A DNA stretch of 53,829 bases from a virus: positions 1-53,829 of IMG/VR virus record IMGVR_UViG_3300046167_000114; one strand, written 5' to 3'. The position numbers were made by a program, and so were the translations under genes. The notes below the pieces were generated by a model. It made no database searches. It was not told the origin of the DNA and worked only from the letters and a program-made list of their open reading frames with translations. Of the stretch, positions 8,217 to 53,312 are shown one piece after another. Within the stretch, counting starts at the first letter, position 1; every line of letters begins with the position of its first letter.

Positions 8217-8868
8217 TTGAAGTAACTTTTAAAGCCAGCATGGGTAATGACCTTACGGTCTGTAACGCTGCCCGTGTTTCATTCGGTAAAGAAACTGAGT
8301 GGGATTACGAAGAGTCAGATGCTTACAGCTTTAAGCAACACCTTAAAACAAAAGATAGGAAGCTTATACAATACCTAGCCAAACACAATCACATCAGCCC
8401 CTTTGGGCATTGCTTTGCCAGCTTTCACATCAAAGCACCCGTCTTTGTAGCTAGGCAACTTGTGAAGCATAAGTTTCTACGGTGGAATGAGATTAGCCGC
8501 AGATACGTGGACAATGAGCCTGAGTTTTACGTACCTGATACATATCGTGGGCGTAGTCTTGATAAGAAGCAAGGTAGCGCAGGTAAAGTAACTGTATCTG
8601 ACAACGGCTTTAACGAGATTGCATTGACAGAGTATGAGTACCTACTAGACTTAGGTGTCTGCCCAGAGCAAGCACGTATGGTGTCTACCACAGAGCTATG
8701 ATGACTGAGTGGTACTGGTCAGGTAGCTTGGATGCGTTTGCTGATATGTGTAAGCTTCGCTGTGCGCCTGACACACAAGCAGAGACAGCAGAGGTAGCGT
8801 GGGGAATTGATCGCATTATGGTTGACCTGTTCCCTGTGTCGTGGAGAGCATTAAGGGAGAATGGATGA
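8213..8868 (+). CDS. thyX: Flavin-dependent thymidylate synthase ThyX, two +1 insertions
   Basis: Converts dUMP to dTMP with FAD and methylene-folate. The first frame covers 162 aa and includes the ThyX signature in phage form (KHKFLRWNEISRRY), then EPEFY, and stops early at 8701. Removing T8684 and T8697 gives LPQSMMTEWYWSGSL, the conserved ThyX C-terminal block, and a full 217-aa protein, the normal length. Two inserted Ts 13 bases apart point to sequencing error rather than decay. It belongs with the RNR, Grx and MazG genes downstream as a dNTP-supply set. Confidence 0.8.
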
Positions 8869-11022: not shown

Positions 11023-13087
11023 ATGAGACTTGTATTAGATGTAGAGAACAGCATCACATGGCGTGATGGTAAGACGTTCATTGACCCCGTACGAGGTAGG
11101 CAACCACCTTGTTCAGGTAGGCATGGTAAATGCTGATAACAAAGAAGAGATTATGCTTGTTACCTTAGATCACAATGAGCATAAGGATTCAGATGGTCAA
11201 GGTAGAGCCTTGATACAGAAGTTACTTGATAAGACTACACTGCTTATCATGCACAATGCCAAGCATGATCTTATGTGGCTATGGGCCAGTGGCTTTACGT
11301 ATGATGGTGACATCTATGATACCCTGCTGGCAGAGTACATATTGTGCAGAGGGCAGAAGCCCAAAGAAGGTATCAGCCTATCAGCCTGTGCTATTAGAAG
11401 AGGCTTAGCAGAGCAGAAGGAAGACTACCTTACTGCCTGTATAAAGAAAGGAATAAACACCCATGAGACGGATCTCGACTCTCTTAGCATTTATCTTCGG
11501 GCTGACATCCTCACAACTTGTGAGTTGTTCCACAGCATCGAAGCAGACTACGCAACCCCAGAATCCAGATCCCTTCATGCAGTCAGAACCGTCACCTTTC
11601 AAACATGCAGAACCCTCACCGAAATGTACATGTCAGGACTAAAGGTAGACCTTGATGTATTGGAGCAGGTTAAGGAAGAGTTTGAGCTTGAACAGGCGCA
11701 GATAGAAGAGCGTCTACAGAGCCAAGTGCGGGATCTTATGGGTGATACACCTATCAACTTAAACTCACCTGAACAGCTATCTCAGGTTATCTTCTCACGT
11801 AAGCCTAACGATAAGAAAGAGTGGGCAGACATATTTGAGTTTGTAAAAGATAAGGCTGAGTTTAAAGGCTGCAGTCAATGCTAACTCTAAGATGCTGTTT
11901 AAGACAACAGCTTTTCACGTGCCCTACATGTAATGGGGCTGGACATACATACAAGACAAAGAAAGACGGTACACGTTACGCTAGGACCAAACAAGTGCAC
12001 TACCTGTGACTCAAGAGGCTATGGCTTGAAAGAGTCAAAGCAAATGGCCGGGCTTGGGCTTTAGTGCACCAAACAAGAAGTGGATCGCTCATAGTGGCTT
12101 TGGCACAGGAAAGGATAACTTAGATGCACTGGTGGCAACAGCTAGGAACAATAACATGGAAGCTGCGGCAAGCTTTATTCTGGATGTTAAGCGCCTTAAT
12201 GCTATCACTAGCTACCTTTCTAGCTTTGTTAACGGCATATCTGTGCATACTAAGTCTAACGGATACCTTCACGCAACTCTTAGCCAGCACATAACAGCTA
12301 CAGGTAGGTTTAGCAGTAAAAACCCTAACATGCAGAACATGCCTCGCGGTGGTACATTCCCTGTTAAGAAAGTCTTTGTGTCACGTTGGGAAGGCGGGAA
12401 AATTTTAGAGGCCGACTTTGCCCAGCTTGAATTTAGAGCGGCTGCGTTCTTAGCTCAAGATGAGGTTGCTATGAGAGAAGGTTGAGACAGGCTTTGACGT
12501 ACATGCTTACACTGCAAAGGTTATCTCTGATGCAGGTCAACCTACCGCTAGACAGGCAGCAAAGGAGCACACTTTTGCCCCGCTATTCGGCGCTACTGGA
12601 TATGGGCCGTAGCAACGCTGAGAAGGCTTACTATGAGCACTTCAATGATAAGTACAAGAGGTATAGCACAGTGGCAACAAAACTTAGCTGACGAAGCAAT
12701 GCGCTTCAATAAGATTACCAATATCAGTGGTAGACAGTATGCTTTCCCTGACATTGAGCGCAGAGCTAATGGTAGTGTCACACACTTTACTATGATAAAG
12801 AATTATCCTGTACAGGGCTTTCGCTACGGGTGATGTTACCCCTGCTGTACTTAATGAGTTTCACAAAAGATTGAAGCCACTAAAAGTCTGTGCTGATCAA
12901 TACAGTACATGACTCAGCGGTGGCTGACATACACCCTGACGAAGAAAAAGAGGTATTACAAATAGTTGCAGATCTTAATGACAATCTTGTAGATCTGATA
13001 GAAGATGTATACAGAGTACGTATGAATGTACCATTATTATTAGAGGCAAAAATAGGCCCAAACTGGCTTGACACAAAAGACGTATAA
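11023..13087 (+). CDS. polA: Family A DNA polymerase with DnaJ-type zinc-finger insert, ten +1 insertions
   Basis: Replicates phage DNA. The corrected protein is 684 aa. The 3'-5' exonuclease (about 1-200) shows LDVEN, HNAKHDLMWLW and YLRADILTT. Near residues 298-330 lie CPTCNGAG and CTTCDSRGYG, a DnaJ-type zinc site as described for phage HMO-2011. Polymerase motifs follow: A (EADFAQLEFR, about 462), B (RQAAKEHTFAPLFGATGYG, about 507-525, Phe at the E. coli 762 position) and C (VHDS, about 625). There is no 5'-3' exonuclease. As given, it is broken by single-base insertions near 11085, 11867, 11917, 11990, 12055, 12480, 12611, 12662, 12820 and 12888. Removing the ten gives 2055 nt, exactly 685 codons. 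Confidence 0.85.
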
Positions 13088-13131
13088 TGTATAACTACAA
13101 TTTCCTGAAACGCTCATCGAAAGGAAACGAT

Positions 13132-13995
13132 ATGAGCCAAGAATTAGCAGTAGCACTAGACCGTGGACAATCAATGGCAGAGCTTATGGGCGTGTCTAAC
13201 AGCACACCACAGAGCGCAACGCCTAGCGTATCACGGCTTAACGTCAACCAAGAGATCCTAGAGAAAGAGGTATCTATGGATGGCGAAACATTTATGAAAC
13301 CAACCGTACCAAAAGGGGCGTACAAACTAACTACAGGTGATGATGTAGTATACAGTAAGACGGTAACTGTACGTGTCTTTGCTGTACGCCAACAGTGGCA
13401 GCGCTGGAATGGTGACACTACTGAGATGGAGAAAAGCGTTTTGGCTAACAGCCTTAACAAGGATCTCAAAGATAACTTAGGTGGCTATAACTTAGGTAGG
13501 CCATCAGGTTATATCGAAGACTTCAATGCACTTTCAGAAGCAACAAAGTCTCTCATTCGTAGCGTAAAGAGAGTTAAGGTATTCTTTGGTTTGGTAACAC
13601 TAGATAGCCCTACAGATGCTATGGGTGAAAAAGTAGACGGTGATTTCACGGACATCCCTTTTGTGTTTGACGTTAAGAACCGTGACTCACTAAAATCATT
13701 GGACGGTGTACTGGCGCAGATCAACAAGAAGAATCTCCTGCCACCTATGTCTACTATCAAGCTATCTCCTGCTGTAGGTAAGATCCCTACGGGTGCTACC
13801 TTTGGTTATGTTACTGCAGCAATCGGTGATAAGGTTGAGCTATCTGATGATGACAATGATGTACTGGGTAACTTCCTAGACTTCATTGAATACATCAATG
13901 GTTCACTCTTAGATAAACATGAAGAGCGTAGCTCTGATGGTCTGTCACACGCCGACAAAGAGATTGTAGCTTCAATCGTAGAAGTGGAAGAGTAA
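13132..13995 (+). CDS. Conserved replication-region protein, possibly ssDNA-binding
   Basis: 287 aa, intact. An acidic, disordered N-terminus is followed by a beta-rich central part (TVTVRVFAVRQQWQRWN; VKVFFGLVTL) and an acidic C-terminal tail (LSDDDNDV...IVEVEE). An acidic tail and position between polymerase and exonuclease fit a single-strand DNA-binding protein, but I recognise no SSB signature. AAAGGAAACGAT precedes the ATG at 13132, and I prefer it to 13087. Confidence 0.5.
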   Translation: MSQELAVALDRGQSMAELMGVSNSTPQSATPSVSRLNVNQEILEKEVSMDGETFMKPTVPKGAYKLTTGDDVVYSKTVTVRVFAVRQQWQRWNGDTTEMEKSVLANSLNKDLKDNLGGYNLGRPSGYIEDFNALSEATKSLIRSVKRVKVFFGLVTLDSPTDAMGEKVDGDFTDIPFVFDVKNRDSLKSLDGVLAQINKKNLLPPMSTIKLSPAVGKIPTGATFGYVTAAIGDKVELSDDDNDVLGNFLDFIEYINGSLLDKHEERSSDGLSHADKEIVASIVEVEE

Positions 13996-14841: not shown

Positions 14842-15268
14842 AAAACATAATACCAGAAGGTATCGTAGTGGCCTTGAAAGAGAGGCCGCTGCATTTCTAA
14901 AGGTAAACCAAAAGAAGGTGTTGTATGAAAAGATAAAGATAGAATGGGAAGACCTACGCTATCGGACATACACACCTGACTTTGAGTTAGACAATGGTAT
15001 CTTTATTGAAACTAAAGGTATCTTTGACAACGAAGATAGACGTAAGCATCTAGCAATAAAGGAGCAACATCCAGAGTTAGACATACGCTTTGTATTTAGT
15101 AACGCTAATGCCAAGCTATATAAAGGTGCCAAATCTCGCTATTATAACTGGTGTGATAAAAATGGCTTTCTGTGGTCACACAGGTTAATACCTGTAGAGT
15201 GGCTAAAAGAAAAAGGTAGACGGTGTAAGCTTGAAAGAGTGGCACTAAAAACACAAAGGAAGAAGTGA
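14834..15268 (+). CDS. T7 gp3-like endonuclease I (Holliday junction resolvase)
   Basis: 144 aa, close to T7 endonuclease I in length. Motifs in order: SGLEREAAAFL (metal-binding Glu), YTPDFELDNGIFIETKGIFD (PD...ExK nuclease core), HPELDIRFVFSNANAKLYKG and LIPVEWLKE. It resolves branched DNA before packaging and helps break down host DNA. The start at 14834 overlaps the exonuclease end; a TTG at 14831 is in frame. Confidence 0.9.
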   Translation: MPKKHNTRRYRSGLEREAAAFLKVNQKKVLYEKIKIEWEDLRYRTYTPDFELDNGIFIETKGIFDNEDRRKHLAIKEQHPELDIRFVFSNANAKLYKGAKSRYYNWCDKNGFLWSHRLIPVEWLKEKGRRCKLERVALKTQRKK

Positions 15269-15639
15269 TGTCTTACAAAGTAAAAAATGATGAAGTTGCT
15301 GTTATTATAAAGCCTGTTATGGATGAAGAGGGTAATTGGACACTTGAGTTAGCTACAGGTTTAGCCTTTGGTGAGGTCATAGATGCGCCTATGCCCGCAG
15401 CACATGCAGCTTTTGAGGCTGCGCTTTCTATGGCAGCGTCTTTAACCTTTCTAGCAGATTACCCTGAGTTTGAGGAAGAGCTTGTCGAATATAAACAGGA
15501 AATGCTAAAAGATATATTTCCTGAGCAATATGCTGCTGCTGAAAAAGAGTTATCAGATGCAGAAAAAGAAGAGGTTTACAGCAAGAAAGGTAACGTATAT
15601 ACACTTAATGCGTTCACTAAAACACAAGGAAGTGCTTAA
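15268..15639 (+). CDS. Hypothetical protein
   Basis: 123 aa. An N-terminal beta segment (VAVIIKPVMDEEGNWTLELA) is followed by an Ala-rich helix (AAHAAFEAALSMAASLTFLA) and an acidic C-terminal half. No recognised family. ATG overlaps the upstream TGA by one base; a GTG at 15265 is in frame. Confidence 0.55.
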   Translation: MSYKVKNDEVAVIIKPVMDEEGNWTLELATGLAFGEVIDAPMPAAHAAFEAALSMAASLTFLADYPEFEEELVEYKQEMLKDIFPEQYAAAEKELSDAEKEEVYSKKGNVYTLNAFTKTQGSA

Positions 15640-15866
15640 TGGTAGATCCTGTAAATAAACCCGTACACTATAATCAAGCTGGGATAGAGTGTATAGAAGC
15701 TATACGTGCTATGACATGTAAGATGGATGGTACAAGTGCGTACATGGCTGGTAATGTATTGAAATACGTTTGGCGTCACGAGTATAAGAATGGTCTGGAA
15801 GACTTAGAGAAGGCGCAGGTATACTTAGGTTGGCTAATAGATAACTACAAAGAGAATCACAAATGA
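15639..15866 (+). CDS. DUF3310 protein (T7 gp1.7-related)
   Basis: 75 aa. The pattern VNKPVHYNQAGIECIEAI, then NVLKYVWRHEYKNGLEDL, then A-x-x-YLGWLI is the DUF3310 signature. T7 gp1.7, a nucleotide kinase, contains this domain. At this size it is the minimal domain. Its place beside MazG and RNR fits nucleotide metabolism. Confidence 0.75.
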   Translation: MVDPVNKPVHYNQAGIECIEAIRAMTCKMDGTSAYMAGNVLKYVWRHEYKNGLEDLEKAQVYLGWLIDNYKENHK

Positions 15867-16036
15867 ACACCAAGACATTTAGTGTTATGTTTATGTTAAA
15901 CGTAGAGGAAGAAAACAACATTCTATCATCGTCTGATGAGCACCATCAGGAAGATGTTTATGACCTAATAACAAATGTTATGTATGATGTTGATGATGTA
16001 AAAATACGAAATTTAATAGTTAAGGAGCGGCAATGA
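15863..16036 (+). CDS. Small acidic hypothetical protein
   Basis: 57 aa, begins MNTKTFSVMFMLNVEEENN, with His/Asp-rich middle. It is ATGA-coupled to genes on both sides, which supports translation. Function unknown. Confidence 0.5.
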   Translation: MNTKTFSVMFMLNVEEENNILSSSDEHHQEDVYDLITNVMYDVDDVKIRNLIVKERQ

Positions 16037-16419
16037 TTAATGAGACAGACTTAGAAGCATTTGGTTACTTTGACATGTTTCAGAACAGCCCTGATTGGGA
16101 TAATGACCCACTACGTTTTTATAGCCAGTTTGTAGAAGATAAAGTTTTTACTAAGGGGCGAGAACGATTAGTAGAAAACACTTTGGGTCTTGTAGGAGAA
16201 TCAGGAGAGGTTGCGGAAAAGATAAAGAAACTATTTCGTGACAAAGGAAAGTTTAGTGATGAAGATGTACTGAAAGAGTTAGGGGATGTGTTGTTCTACG
16301 TTGTTGCATTATCAAACATCTTTGGCGGTAACTTAAAGAAGACTATGGAAATGAATATGGCAAAGCTGGATGACAGAGAGCAGCGCGGAAAATTAAAGGG
16401 TTCAGGAGACAATAGATGA
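16033..16419 (+). CDS. mazG: MazG-like nucleotide pyrophosphohydrolase
   Basis: 128 aa. The MazG metal site is visible as GLVGESGEVAEKIKK (ExxE-type) and ELGDVLFYV (ExxD), with the tail NMAKLDDREQRGKLKGSGDNR typical of the family. Phage MazG may hydrolyse non-canonical dNTPs or lower host (p)ppGpp. It is ATGA-coupled to the RNR gene. Confidence 0.85.
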   Translation: MINETDLEAFGYFDMFQNSPDWDNDPLRFYSQFVEDKVFTKGRERLVENTLGLVGESGEVAEKIKKLFRDKGKFSDEDVLKELGDVLFYVVALSNIFGGNLKKTMEMNMAKLDDREQRGKLKGSGDNR

Positions 16420-18311
16420 GCAACCTACTACCAACAGACTATCAGACATTTATTCACAAATCACGTTATGCCAAATACTATGACGGTTACGGGCGTGAGT
16501 TTTGGACAGACACAGTAGAGCGCTACATGATCAATGTAGTTAATTCACTGCTAGACCCTAAGATTTGTAGAGAGATTGAGTCTGCTATACTTAGCACAGA
16601 CATCATGCCCTCTATGCGAGCGTTGATGACTGCTGGCCCTGCTTTAGACAGAGACAATACTGCTGGCTATAACTGTAGCTACTTACCCGTAGATGACCCT
16701 AAGTCCTTCGATGAGGCTATGTACATCCTCTTGTGCGGTACTGGTGTTGGTTTCAGCGTCGAGAGGCAGTATGTTAGCAAGCTCCCTGAAATACCTCAAC
16801 TCTTCGATAGTGAGACTACAATCGTTGTCAAGGACAGTAAGGAAGGTTGGGCTAAAGCTTTCAGACAATTGTTGGCACTCCTTTGGGCTGGTGAAATCCC
16901 TCAGTGGGATATTGGTTTGGTACGCCCTGCAGGTGCTAGGCTCAAGACGTTTGGTGGTAGAGCAAGTGGCCCAGCGCCTCTAGTTGAATTGTTTAACTTT
17001 GCTATCACAACCTTCAAGGCTGCACAAGGACGCAAGCTATCTAGCATTGAGTGCCATGATCTTATGTGCTTCATTGGTCAGATTGTTGTAGTTGGTGGTG
17101 TACGCCGTAGTGCTATGATTAGTTTGTCTAACTTGAGTGATGACCGTATGCGACACGCTAAGTCAGGCCAGTGGTGGGAAACAGCCCCGTGGAGAGCCTT
17201 AGCTAACAACAGCGTAGGGTACACAGAGAAGCCTGACATGGAGACATTCATGCGTGAGTGGACAGCCCTTGTTGCATCTAAATCAGGTGAGCGTGGAGTG
17301 TTCAACCGTCAAGCTTGTATCGATCTAGCAGTTAAGCATGGACGCCGTGATCCTAACCATGAGTTTGGTTGCAACCCCTGTTCTGAAATCAGCTTGCGCC
17401 CGTACCAATTCTGTAACTTAACGGAAGTTGTTGTACGTGCTACAGATACTATTGATGACCTAGAACGTAAGGTACGTCTGGCTACTATTCTTGGCACAGT
17501 ACAGTCTACGTATACTAAGTTTCCTTACTTGCGTAAAGTATGGCAGAAGAACACAGAAGAAGAGCGCTTACTTGGCGTATCACTTACAGGTGTTATGGAT
17601 AACCCTCTAATGACGCCTAAGAATCAAGGATTGGAGCAGACTCTTGAGCACCTACGTAGTGTGGCTGTCAATACTAACGCTGAATTTGCTGGTATGCTTA
17701 ATATACCTGTATCTGCAGCAATTACGTGCATTAAACCATCGGGTACCGTCTCGCAATTGGTGGATAGCGCCAGTGGCATACATGCTCGCCACAGTGCCTA
17801 TTATATCCGTACTGTGCGCGGTGATAATAAAGATCCGCTAACACAGTTTATGAAAGACAAAGGCATCCCTAATGAGCCTTGTGTAATGAAGGGTGACACA
17901 ACCACAGTGTTTAGTTTTCCTGTAAAGTCACCTGATAATGCGGTTACACGTAATGATATGACAGCCATTGAGCAGCTAGAGTTGTGGCTTACTTATCAGC
18001 GACATTGGTGTGAACATAAGCCAAGTGTGACAATCTCAGTGCGGGATGCTGAATGGATGGAAGTGGGTGCATTTGTTTACAGGCACTTTGATGAAATGTC
18101 TGGTGTATCATTCTTACCTCATACAGATCACACGTATCAGCAAGCGCCTTATCAGGATTGTACTAAGGAAGAGTACGAAGAGCTTTTAGCTAAGATGCCT
18201 ATCAGCATTGCTTGGTCAGAGCTTACTGAGTACGAAAGCGAAGACAATACTGCAGGTAGTCAGACTATGGCATGTACAGGAGATTCCTGTGAGTTGGTAG
18301 ATCTGACATGA
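16416..18311 (+). CDS. Class II (B12-dependent) ribonucleotide reductase, monomeric RTPR type
   Basis: 631 aa and intact. Reduces ribonucleotides to deoxyribonucleotides with adenosylcobalamin. It carries the N-terminal redox Cys (YNCSYLPVDD), the finger and active-site segment FGCNPCSEISL (radical Cys and Glu), CIKPSGTVSQL, and a C-terminal Cys pair (CTGDSCEL) that takes electrons from a redoxin. The single-chain layout resembles Lactobacillus RTPR. It is directly followed by a glutaredoxin gene, a likely electron donor. Confidence 0.88.
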   Translation: MSNLLPTDYQTFIHKSRYAKYYDGYGREFWTDTVERYMINVVNSLLDPKICREIESAILSTDIMPSMRALMTAGPALDRDNTAGYNCSYLPVDDPKSFDEAMYILLCGTGVGFSVERQYVSKLPEIPQLFDSETTIVVKDSKEGWAKAFRQLLALLWAGEIPQWDIGLVRPAGARLKTFGGRASGPAPLVELFNFAITTFKAAQGRKLSSIECHDLMCFIGQIVVVGGVRRSAMISLSNLSDDRMRHAKSGQWWETAPWRALANNSVGYTEKPDMETFMREWTALVASKSGERGVFNRQACIDLAVKHGRRDPNHEFGCNPCSEISLRPYQFCNLTEVVVRATDTIDDLERKVRLATILGTVQSTYTKFPYLRKVWQKNTEEERLLGVSLTGVMDNPLMTPKNQGLEQTLEHLRSVAVNTNAEFAGMLNIPVSAAITCIKPSGTVSQLVDSASGIHARHSAYYIRTVRGDNKDPLTQFMKDKGIPNEPCVMKGDTTTVFSFPVKSPDNAVTRNDMTAIEQLELWLTYQRHWCEHKPSVTISVRDAEWMEVGAFVYRHFDEMSGVSFLPHTDHTYQQAPYQDCTKEEYEELLAKMPISIAWSELTEYESEDNTAGSQTMACTGDSCELVDLT

Positions 18312-18538
18312 GTGTATACACATTAGTGGGGCGGCTTGACTGCCCTCACTGCTCCAAAGCTATGGGGTTGTTGAGAGATAGCGGCCTTTCTGCTCAGTAC
18401 TACTCTCTCAATGACTCCAAGTGGTTACTTGACTTATTTAAGAAGTCAGGTATAAAGACTGTACCCCAAATATGGGATATAGAAGGTAATCACATAGGTG
18501 GTTACACAGACCTGAAAAAACTCTTGAAAGGAGAATGA
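18308..18538 (+). CDS. Glutaredoxin
   Basis: 76 aa. The active site CPHC is at residues 12-15, with the cis-Pro loop TVPQIW and the GGYTDL glutathione-side motif. It overlaps the RNR stop by ATGA, and its likely job is to re-reduce the RNR. Confidence 0.88.
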   Translation: MSVYTLVGRLDCPHCSKAMGLLRDSGLSAQYYSLNDSKWLLDLFKKSGIKTVPQIWDIEGNHIGGYTDLKKLLKGE

Positions 18539-52615: not shown

Positions 52616-52848
52616 TAAGCTTCTTTCTTAGTTTTTGGCTTAATAGCCTTCTTTACTTTGTTAAATATACCTGATGACTCTGCATCCATACAGATCTGAG
52701 TAACGTTAGGGTCTTTACTTTGCACGTTACCAAAACGATCCTCACCTGCAGCTTGGTTGCCATTAGCATCCCACACCATGCCATCACCATCAATAGTGTA
52801 ACCTGCAGCATTAAGCTGCTTCTTATACTTATCGTAGTACTTAGCCAT
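52615..52848 (-). CDS. Small basic hypothetical protein
   Basis: 77 aa. MAKYYDKYKKQLNAAGYTID and a WDANGNQAAGEDRFGNVQSK turn, with a Lys-rich tail. It sits among the small virion genes at the right end. No family is recognised. Confidence 0.5.
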   Translation of the reverse strand: MAKYYDKYKKQLNAAGYTIDGDGMVWDANGNQAAGEDRFGNVQSKDPNVTQICMDAESSGIFNKVKKAIKPKTKKEA

Positions 52849-53312
52849 TATGATTTACCACGCCTAATAGGGTTCTTTGCTGGATTAGATGCACCACACG
52901 CTAAACCACCGTGCTTAAAACCCTTCTTAGCCATACCACCATACATGTAGCCCATCTTAGCTGCTACCTTTGGTGCTTTTTTCTTTAGTGCTGCCATACC
53001 AGCATTCATGGGTTTTTTCTTACCGACATCACCGCCAGCACTCATATTCAAAGCGTTAGAAATATCATTCAGAGCTTCTTTTGCTTTTTTCTTTTTACCG
53101 GCAGTCAATACAGCCTCAGAATTAGGTGTGTCTCTGTATCCAACATCATACTGTTTAGTTGCACCTCGGATACCTGCCTTTTTTTGTTCTTTCTTAGTCA
53201 TTGGTTTCTTACCCATATCACCACCCTTTGCCATTCCTGTTTTGTGATAACCTGTACCCCCACAATGAGAGCACCCTTTTCCTTTACACTTTGGACACAC
53301 TTTCTTTGCCAT
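52848..53312 (-). CDS. DnaJ-type zinc-finger and GG-motif protein
   Basis: 154 aa. The N-terminus VCPKCKGKGCSHCGGTGYH has two CxxCxGxG units, a single DnaJ-like zinc site. A Lys-rich middle follows, and the C-terminus has YMYGGMAKKGFKHGGLACG. Several marine podoviruses carry similar Lys/Gly-rich small proteins. It may bind DNA or be packaged in the capsid. The zinc finger recalls the polymerase insert. Confidence 0.6.
   Translation of the reverse strand: MAKKVCPKCKGKGCSHCGGTGYHKTGMAKGGDMGKKPMTKKEQKKAGIRGATKQYDVGYRDTPNSEAVLTAGKKKKAKEALNDISNALNMSAGGDVGKKKPMNAGMAALKKKAPKVAAKMGYMYGGMAKKGFKHGGLACGASNPAKNPIRRGKS

Follow-up and report, generated by a model that had tools for sequence, protein, structure and literature searches.

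A putative zinc-pinned basic finger at the polymerase thumb tip in HMO-2011-type phages

What does a pair of DnaJ-type cysteine motifs do inside a phage DNA polymerase, and which part of the enzyme carries it? Both questions arise from the polA gene of the window, the 53,829-nucleotide stretch of viral DNA analyzed here. The window is an HMO-2011-type genome: its proteins are collinear with those of phage CRP-207 at 33-89% identity (primase, helicase, RNR, portal, TerL, coat), and its PolA is 66-68% identical to the PolA of CRP-2, CRP-603, and CRP-207. The gene, the cysteine module, and the neighbors (primase and helicase upstream) are shared with HMO-2011 itself (a Puniceispirillum phage, ADW08435) and with the CRP and HTVC033P phages. 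The HMO-2011 type ranks among the most abundant phages in the sea, and its polymerase serves as a marker gene. The feature is already known, and the zinc-finger polymerase is published: the module has been described (PMC6918029, PMC8528129), and a "partial DnaJ domain" served to delimit a set of 207 metagenomic genomes and 2433 polymerases (PMC9038755). That domain, with the two CXXCXGXG-type motifs by which PMC9038755 delimits the type, is present here with its second motif relaxed to CxxCxxxG. So are PF00476 and PF01612, characteristic of the type in proteins of 540-779 aa (the intact homologue has 684), with PF01612 (3'-5' exonuclease) falling below cut-off in the stitched protein of the window. 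The initial annotation stated that HMO-2011 has the same feature, which agrees with the published descriptions and with PF00684 annotated on the polymerase in the GenBank record of that phage. As far as the literature was searched, what is new is the placement of the module at the thumb tip, at the column of Pol theta insert 1, together with its single four-Cys site and an invariant basic hairpin. Placement next to the primer-template duplex offers a precise, testable hypothesis for a hallmark domain so far without a mechanism.

The polA gene and its intact relatives

The gene, its closest intact relative, and the two motifs lie as follows; residue numbers throughout are those of the intact homologue.

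11023..13087, plus strand: polA, encoding a family A DNA polymerase with a 3'-5' exonuclease; ten 1-base insertions break the frame
about 11089, 11867, 11916, 11984, 12056, 12478, 12607, 12658, 12822, and 12882: the 1-base insertions
L004:5272-7323: intact 684-aa PolA homologue, 98% identical over the query region
11920..11943, plus strand: zinc knuckle 1, CPTCNGAG (C299, C302)
11996..12019, plus strand: zinc knuckle 2, CTTCDSRG (C324, C327; G331 invariant)

Comparison with close relatives counts ten insertions and no deletions in the gene, and the insertions near 11867, 11916, 11984, and 12056 put the two Cys motifs in different reading frames. The possibility that sequencing errors created the Cys codons, for which the ten insertions might speak, was named at the outset as an outcome that would overturn the reading. 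It is ruled out by intact, near-identical genes in independent contigs and in isolate genomes, and its probability is now negligible. At 97-98% protein identity, the same region recurs in twenty-one IMG/VR contigs, mostly within an intact 684-aa PolA, so that by this comparison the Cys codons are real. Values of pN/pS (0.045 for the whole of polA and 0.031 for the insert) point to strong purifying selection. Given this selection and the near-identical intact contigs, the frameshifts in the window are most likely sequencing or assembly errors.

Single-base insertions also occur elsewhere, at 8684, 8695, 10752, and 14163, in thyX, the helicase gene, and gp27 (one or two per gene), and frame changes on the minus strand affect terL and some tail genes as well. 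The 3.4 kb around the RNR gene (14861-18275) contain no insertion, versus ten in polA. The clustering of the polA errors and their insertion-only character suggest a local assembly or read-type artefact.

Position of the insert and its cysteine site

The module belongs to an insert of about 100 residues, whose surroundings are these.

11651..11740, plus strand: thumb helix H (residues 210-239; AlphaFold2/DSSP)
11768..11794, plus strand: thumb helix H1 (residues 249-257, 'PEQLSQVIF'), the last Klenow-alignable element before the insert
11804..12110, plus strand: thumb-tip insert (residues ~261-361; Pfam, Klenow profile, and model), with two short helices, a beta-ribbon, the zinc knuckles, and a return segment
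11898..11919, plus strand: ribbon strand 1 (residues 292-298; AlphaFold2/DSSP)
12020..12046, plus strand: ribbon strand 2 (residues 332-340; AlphaFold2/DSSP)
12099..12113, plus strand: F358-GTG-K362, end of the insert, at the column of Pol theta F2177-STS-K2181

The initial annotation placed two DnaJ-type Cys motifs in PolA, at the linker between exonuclease and palm. The motifs are indeed where it put them, at 11920 and 11996; the linker assignment fails, since the insert splits the match to the polymerase domain PF00476 (profile positions 4-46 before it and 55-380 after it). A profile of 47 relatives aligned to Klenow likewise loses the match after chain residue 271, within the thumb, and regains it from 328. 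The AlphaFold model of the intact homologue (pLDDT 90.1, pTM 0.82) contains a two-stranded ribbon with one knuckle pair, and a Foldseek search with the PolA model returns Bst Pol I as the top PDB matches, with Pol theta also high. The insert thus lies at the thumb tip of the polymerase domain. The polymerase does not differ essentially from those of other HMO-2011-type phages; it is the published location, "between exonuclease and polymerase domain", that should, in light of the split domain, the Klenow profile, and the model, read thumb tip. A literature search pairing 'HMO-2011' and 'thumb' found no paper.

Conservation was assessed in relatives collected by polymerase similarity, with the motif not required. 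None of the four Cys varies across 31 representatives sharing less than 90% identity (drawn from 110 distinct full-length sequences and reaching down to ~34% identity), nor in alignments of 47 and 51 sequences. They are the only invariant ones among the nine Cys of PolA. The full set of unvarying residues in the 31 representatives comprises C299, C302, C324, C327, G304, G306, K313, G315, G331, T294, A341, and G342. The suggestion that the feature is fixed in the group therefore holds up, although partly by the definition of the HMO-2011 type. A strict CxxCxGxG is seen in the first motif alone; in its place the second has CxxCxxxG here (S329), a relaxed form found in about a third of representatives, with Gly at 329 in the other roughly two thirds. 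A distant member, L210 (L210:5838-6029), keeps all four Cys and has lost the second Gly of the first motif (CDECKGNKR), so that what is conserved at the core appears to be the metal ligands and not the complete CxxCxGxG pattern. The L210 PolA lies on a contig binned as a Euryarchaeota MAG.

Likeness to the Cys-rich domain of DnaJ/Hsp40 (PF00684) extends to the CxxCxGxG knuckles and, apparently, to the ribbon topology. The profile match is limited to positions 15-54 of 65, that is, motifs 2 and 3 of DnaJ, and scores below the curated cut-off in most members. Unlike type I DnaJ/Hsp40, with four CxxCxGxG motifs and two zinc sites, the phage module has two motifs, the second often without its first Gly, and there is a single four-Cys metal site. 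This excludes a DnaJ-type two-zinc domain and the "two or more zinc sites" initially envisaged; the bound metal itself is probably zinc. Searched alone with Foldseek, the 64-residue module matches the DnaJA2 zinc domain (probability 0.99, E 0.2-0.5) and anti-TRAP (0.97-0.99, in the same E range), followed by BSD2 (up to 0.75) and UvrA (0.4-0.6). The E-values for the module, 0.2 to 3 overall, are weak, as expected for so small a domain. Separately, phrog_6060 matches L004 residues 290-331 with weak likeness to phage antitermination Q-like proteins (E 0.005), to which weak tblastn matches also point.

The sub-threshold PF00684 likeness has a functional counterpart in the literature, where analogy with lambda replication led to the suggestion that the module brings the host chaperone DnaK to the replisome (PMC9038755). 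Such mimicry is highly improbable here: the Pfam scan of PolA finds no J-domain (HPD), the part that docks to DnaK, and a J-less DnaJ-like zinc protein, ZnJ2, failed to cooperate with DnaK (PMC5818400). The module moreover retains two of four motifs and is inserted in a polymerase thumb.

Distribution of the module and other thumb insertions

Among 50,697 phage records the module occurs in 12, all of the HMO-2011 type; beyond these, no credible match was found in phages or plasmids, the next best having E about 2 or more. A scan of cellular genome contigs returned 11 loci. Those among them with the module resemble HMO-type phage contigs that were binned into marine genomes, and a cellular PolA carrying the module was rejected as a candidate on this ground.

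The nearest relatives in a tree of the palm, Zobellviridae and a Stenotrophomonas phage, have no insert. The insert-less Zobellviridae fall next to or among the zinc group at a fork without resolution, a topology compatible with one gain of the zinc insert or with gain plus loss. Autographiviridae-like polymerases (Pepon, phiKT, Bhz21, K439), which the tree does not place as nearest relatives, also carry an insert at this point of the thumb, between similar flanks (F-x-P..W..G-x-x-ST), but theirs lacks Cys pairs and the proteins are longer (783-797 aa). In the Autographiviridae-like PolA of L221, L222, L223, and L224, the insert at this site is long, has no Cys, and contains basic stretches of the GKKKG type. 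Insertion into podoviral PolA apparently recurs here.

The same column is occupied in human Pol theta, where insert 1 directly precedes F-S-T-x-K. The HMO-type F-x-T-x-K362 aligns with F2177-STSK2181 (chain position 359 of the 772 residues of 4x0q, with the chain start taken as residue 1819), and on the evidence of this short aligned motif K362 may be the equivalent of K2181. The likeness is one of site only, and no sequence similarity between the phage insert and insert 1 was detected; insert 1 is also not known to have a Cys motif pair. The T7 polymerase likewise has a thumb insertion in a phage family A enzyme. Its thioredoxin-binding domain is inserted between helices H and H1, one helix before the site considered here; it is not known to contain zinc and requires host thioredoxin. 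No insertion of that type separates helices H (210-239) and H1 (249-257) in the AlphaFold model of the HMO-type enzyme. Relative to the HMO-type insert, insert 1 of Pol theta (P2144-F2177) is shorter: it has 34 residues, which the crystal structure leaves unresolved (PMC11080051).

The basic hairpin and its candidate contacts

Between the knuckles runs a short segment whose charge bears on function.

11944..11995, plus strand: basic hairpin joining knuckle 1 to knuckle 2 (HTYKTKKDGTRYAR..NK); K313 and G315 do not vary, and the ~11984 insertion breaks the segment

Its mean net charge is +5.9 in 21 residues, ranging from +4 to +9 across 192 sequences and never falling below +4. In the mechanism proposed here, the thumb-tip insertion would bear a DnaJ-type zinc-knuckle pair (the motif 2+3 half) on its two-stranded ribbon, and one zinc, bound by the four invariant Cys, would stiffen the strongly basic hairpin (KxxKKDG). 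Because the thumb tip runs along the primer-template duplex, the finger would most likely contact the DNA backbone of that duplex behind the active site, and a longer stay of the enzyme on DNA would make it a built-in processivity element. It would act as the insertions in the thumbs of T7 polymerase and Pol theta do, with a fold of its own.

Precedents for such a role come from several family A enzymes. Insert 1 of Pol theta is thought to serve processivity, and K2181 touches the primer phosphate backbone (PMC11080051). Processivity factors attach to the T7 and human mitochondrial (Pol gamma) polymerases via insertions in the thumb; plant organellar polymerases have lysine-rich insertions there, which have been modelled against dsDNA (PMC7699545). 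The clamp or processivity role raised in the initial annotation is plausible, and the thumb position and the basic hairpin make it more likely. On balance, sequence, model, and analogy lean toward a zinc-pinned basic finger that holds the primer-template duplex and probably raises processivity. More tentatively, the finger may be a self-contained clamp, an intrinsic processivity factor at the Pol theta insert 1 site that works without a thioredoxin-like partner. If true, this would add a zinc-based example to the thumb insertions that tune family A polymerases.

A more modest role would have the zinc merely stabilize the thumb insert, or Cys oxidation tune the polymerase, with contact to neither DNA nor protein. 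The greater importance of the four Cys over the glycines, as in L210, is consistent with a staple or redox switch of this kind, as is the Cys-less insert at the same site in Autographiviridae-like polymerases. K313, G315, and the hairpin charge are nevertheless conserved as strictly as the Cys, which exceeds the needs of a staple and renders this role improbable.

The main rival to DNA clamping is docking; an acidic protein tail would be just as suitable a ligand for the basic hairpin. On this view the thumb finger would recruit a replisome protein (helicase, SSB-like protein, or host factor). In T7 the thioredoxin-binding domain plays such a part for thioredoxin and for the tail of the T7 SSB, which binds the polymerase through that domain (PMC7699545). 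Two genes of the window are relevant.

13087..13995, plus strand: ORF right after polA, conserved in the group, with an acidic C-terminus; a candidate hairpin partner, as a lead only
18335-18496: gene for a glutaredoxin (PF00462, E 3e-9), following that for RNR

In relatives, the last 22 residues of the product of the first ORF have a mean net charge of -6.3 and are always negative, in keeping with docking. The protein is possibly a replisome component; as an SSB it was rejected, because despite the acidic tail no Pfam, PHROG, PDB, or profile link to SSB was detected, and this counts against docking. Glutaredoxin was considered as an equivalent of the T7 thioredoxin and set aside: present in the window, it occurs in just two of the six isolate genomes tested and is thus not an obligate partner. 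The same count argues against a phage-encoded thioredoxin-like factor and leaves a dedicated redox-type docking partner unsupported. Recruitment through the finger is the less likely of the two roles, and contact with the primer-template duplex remains the preferred reading.

A second, separate CxxCxGxG pair occurs in the same genome, in a small lysine-rich ORF on the minus strand (52848-53312) that begins MAKKVCPKCKGKGCSHCGGTGYHK and weakly matches phrog_1418.
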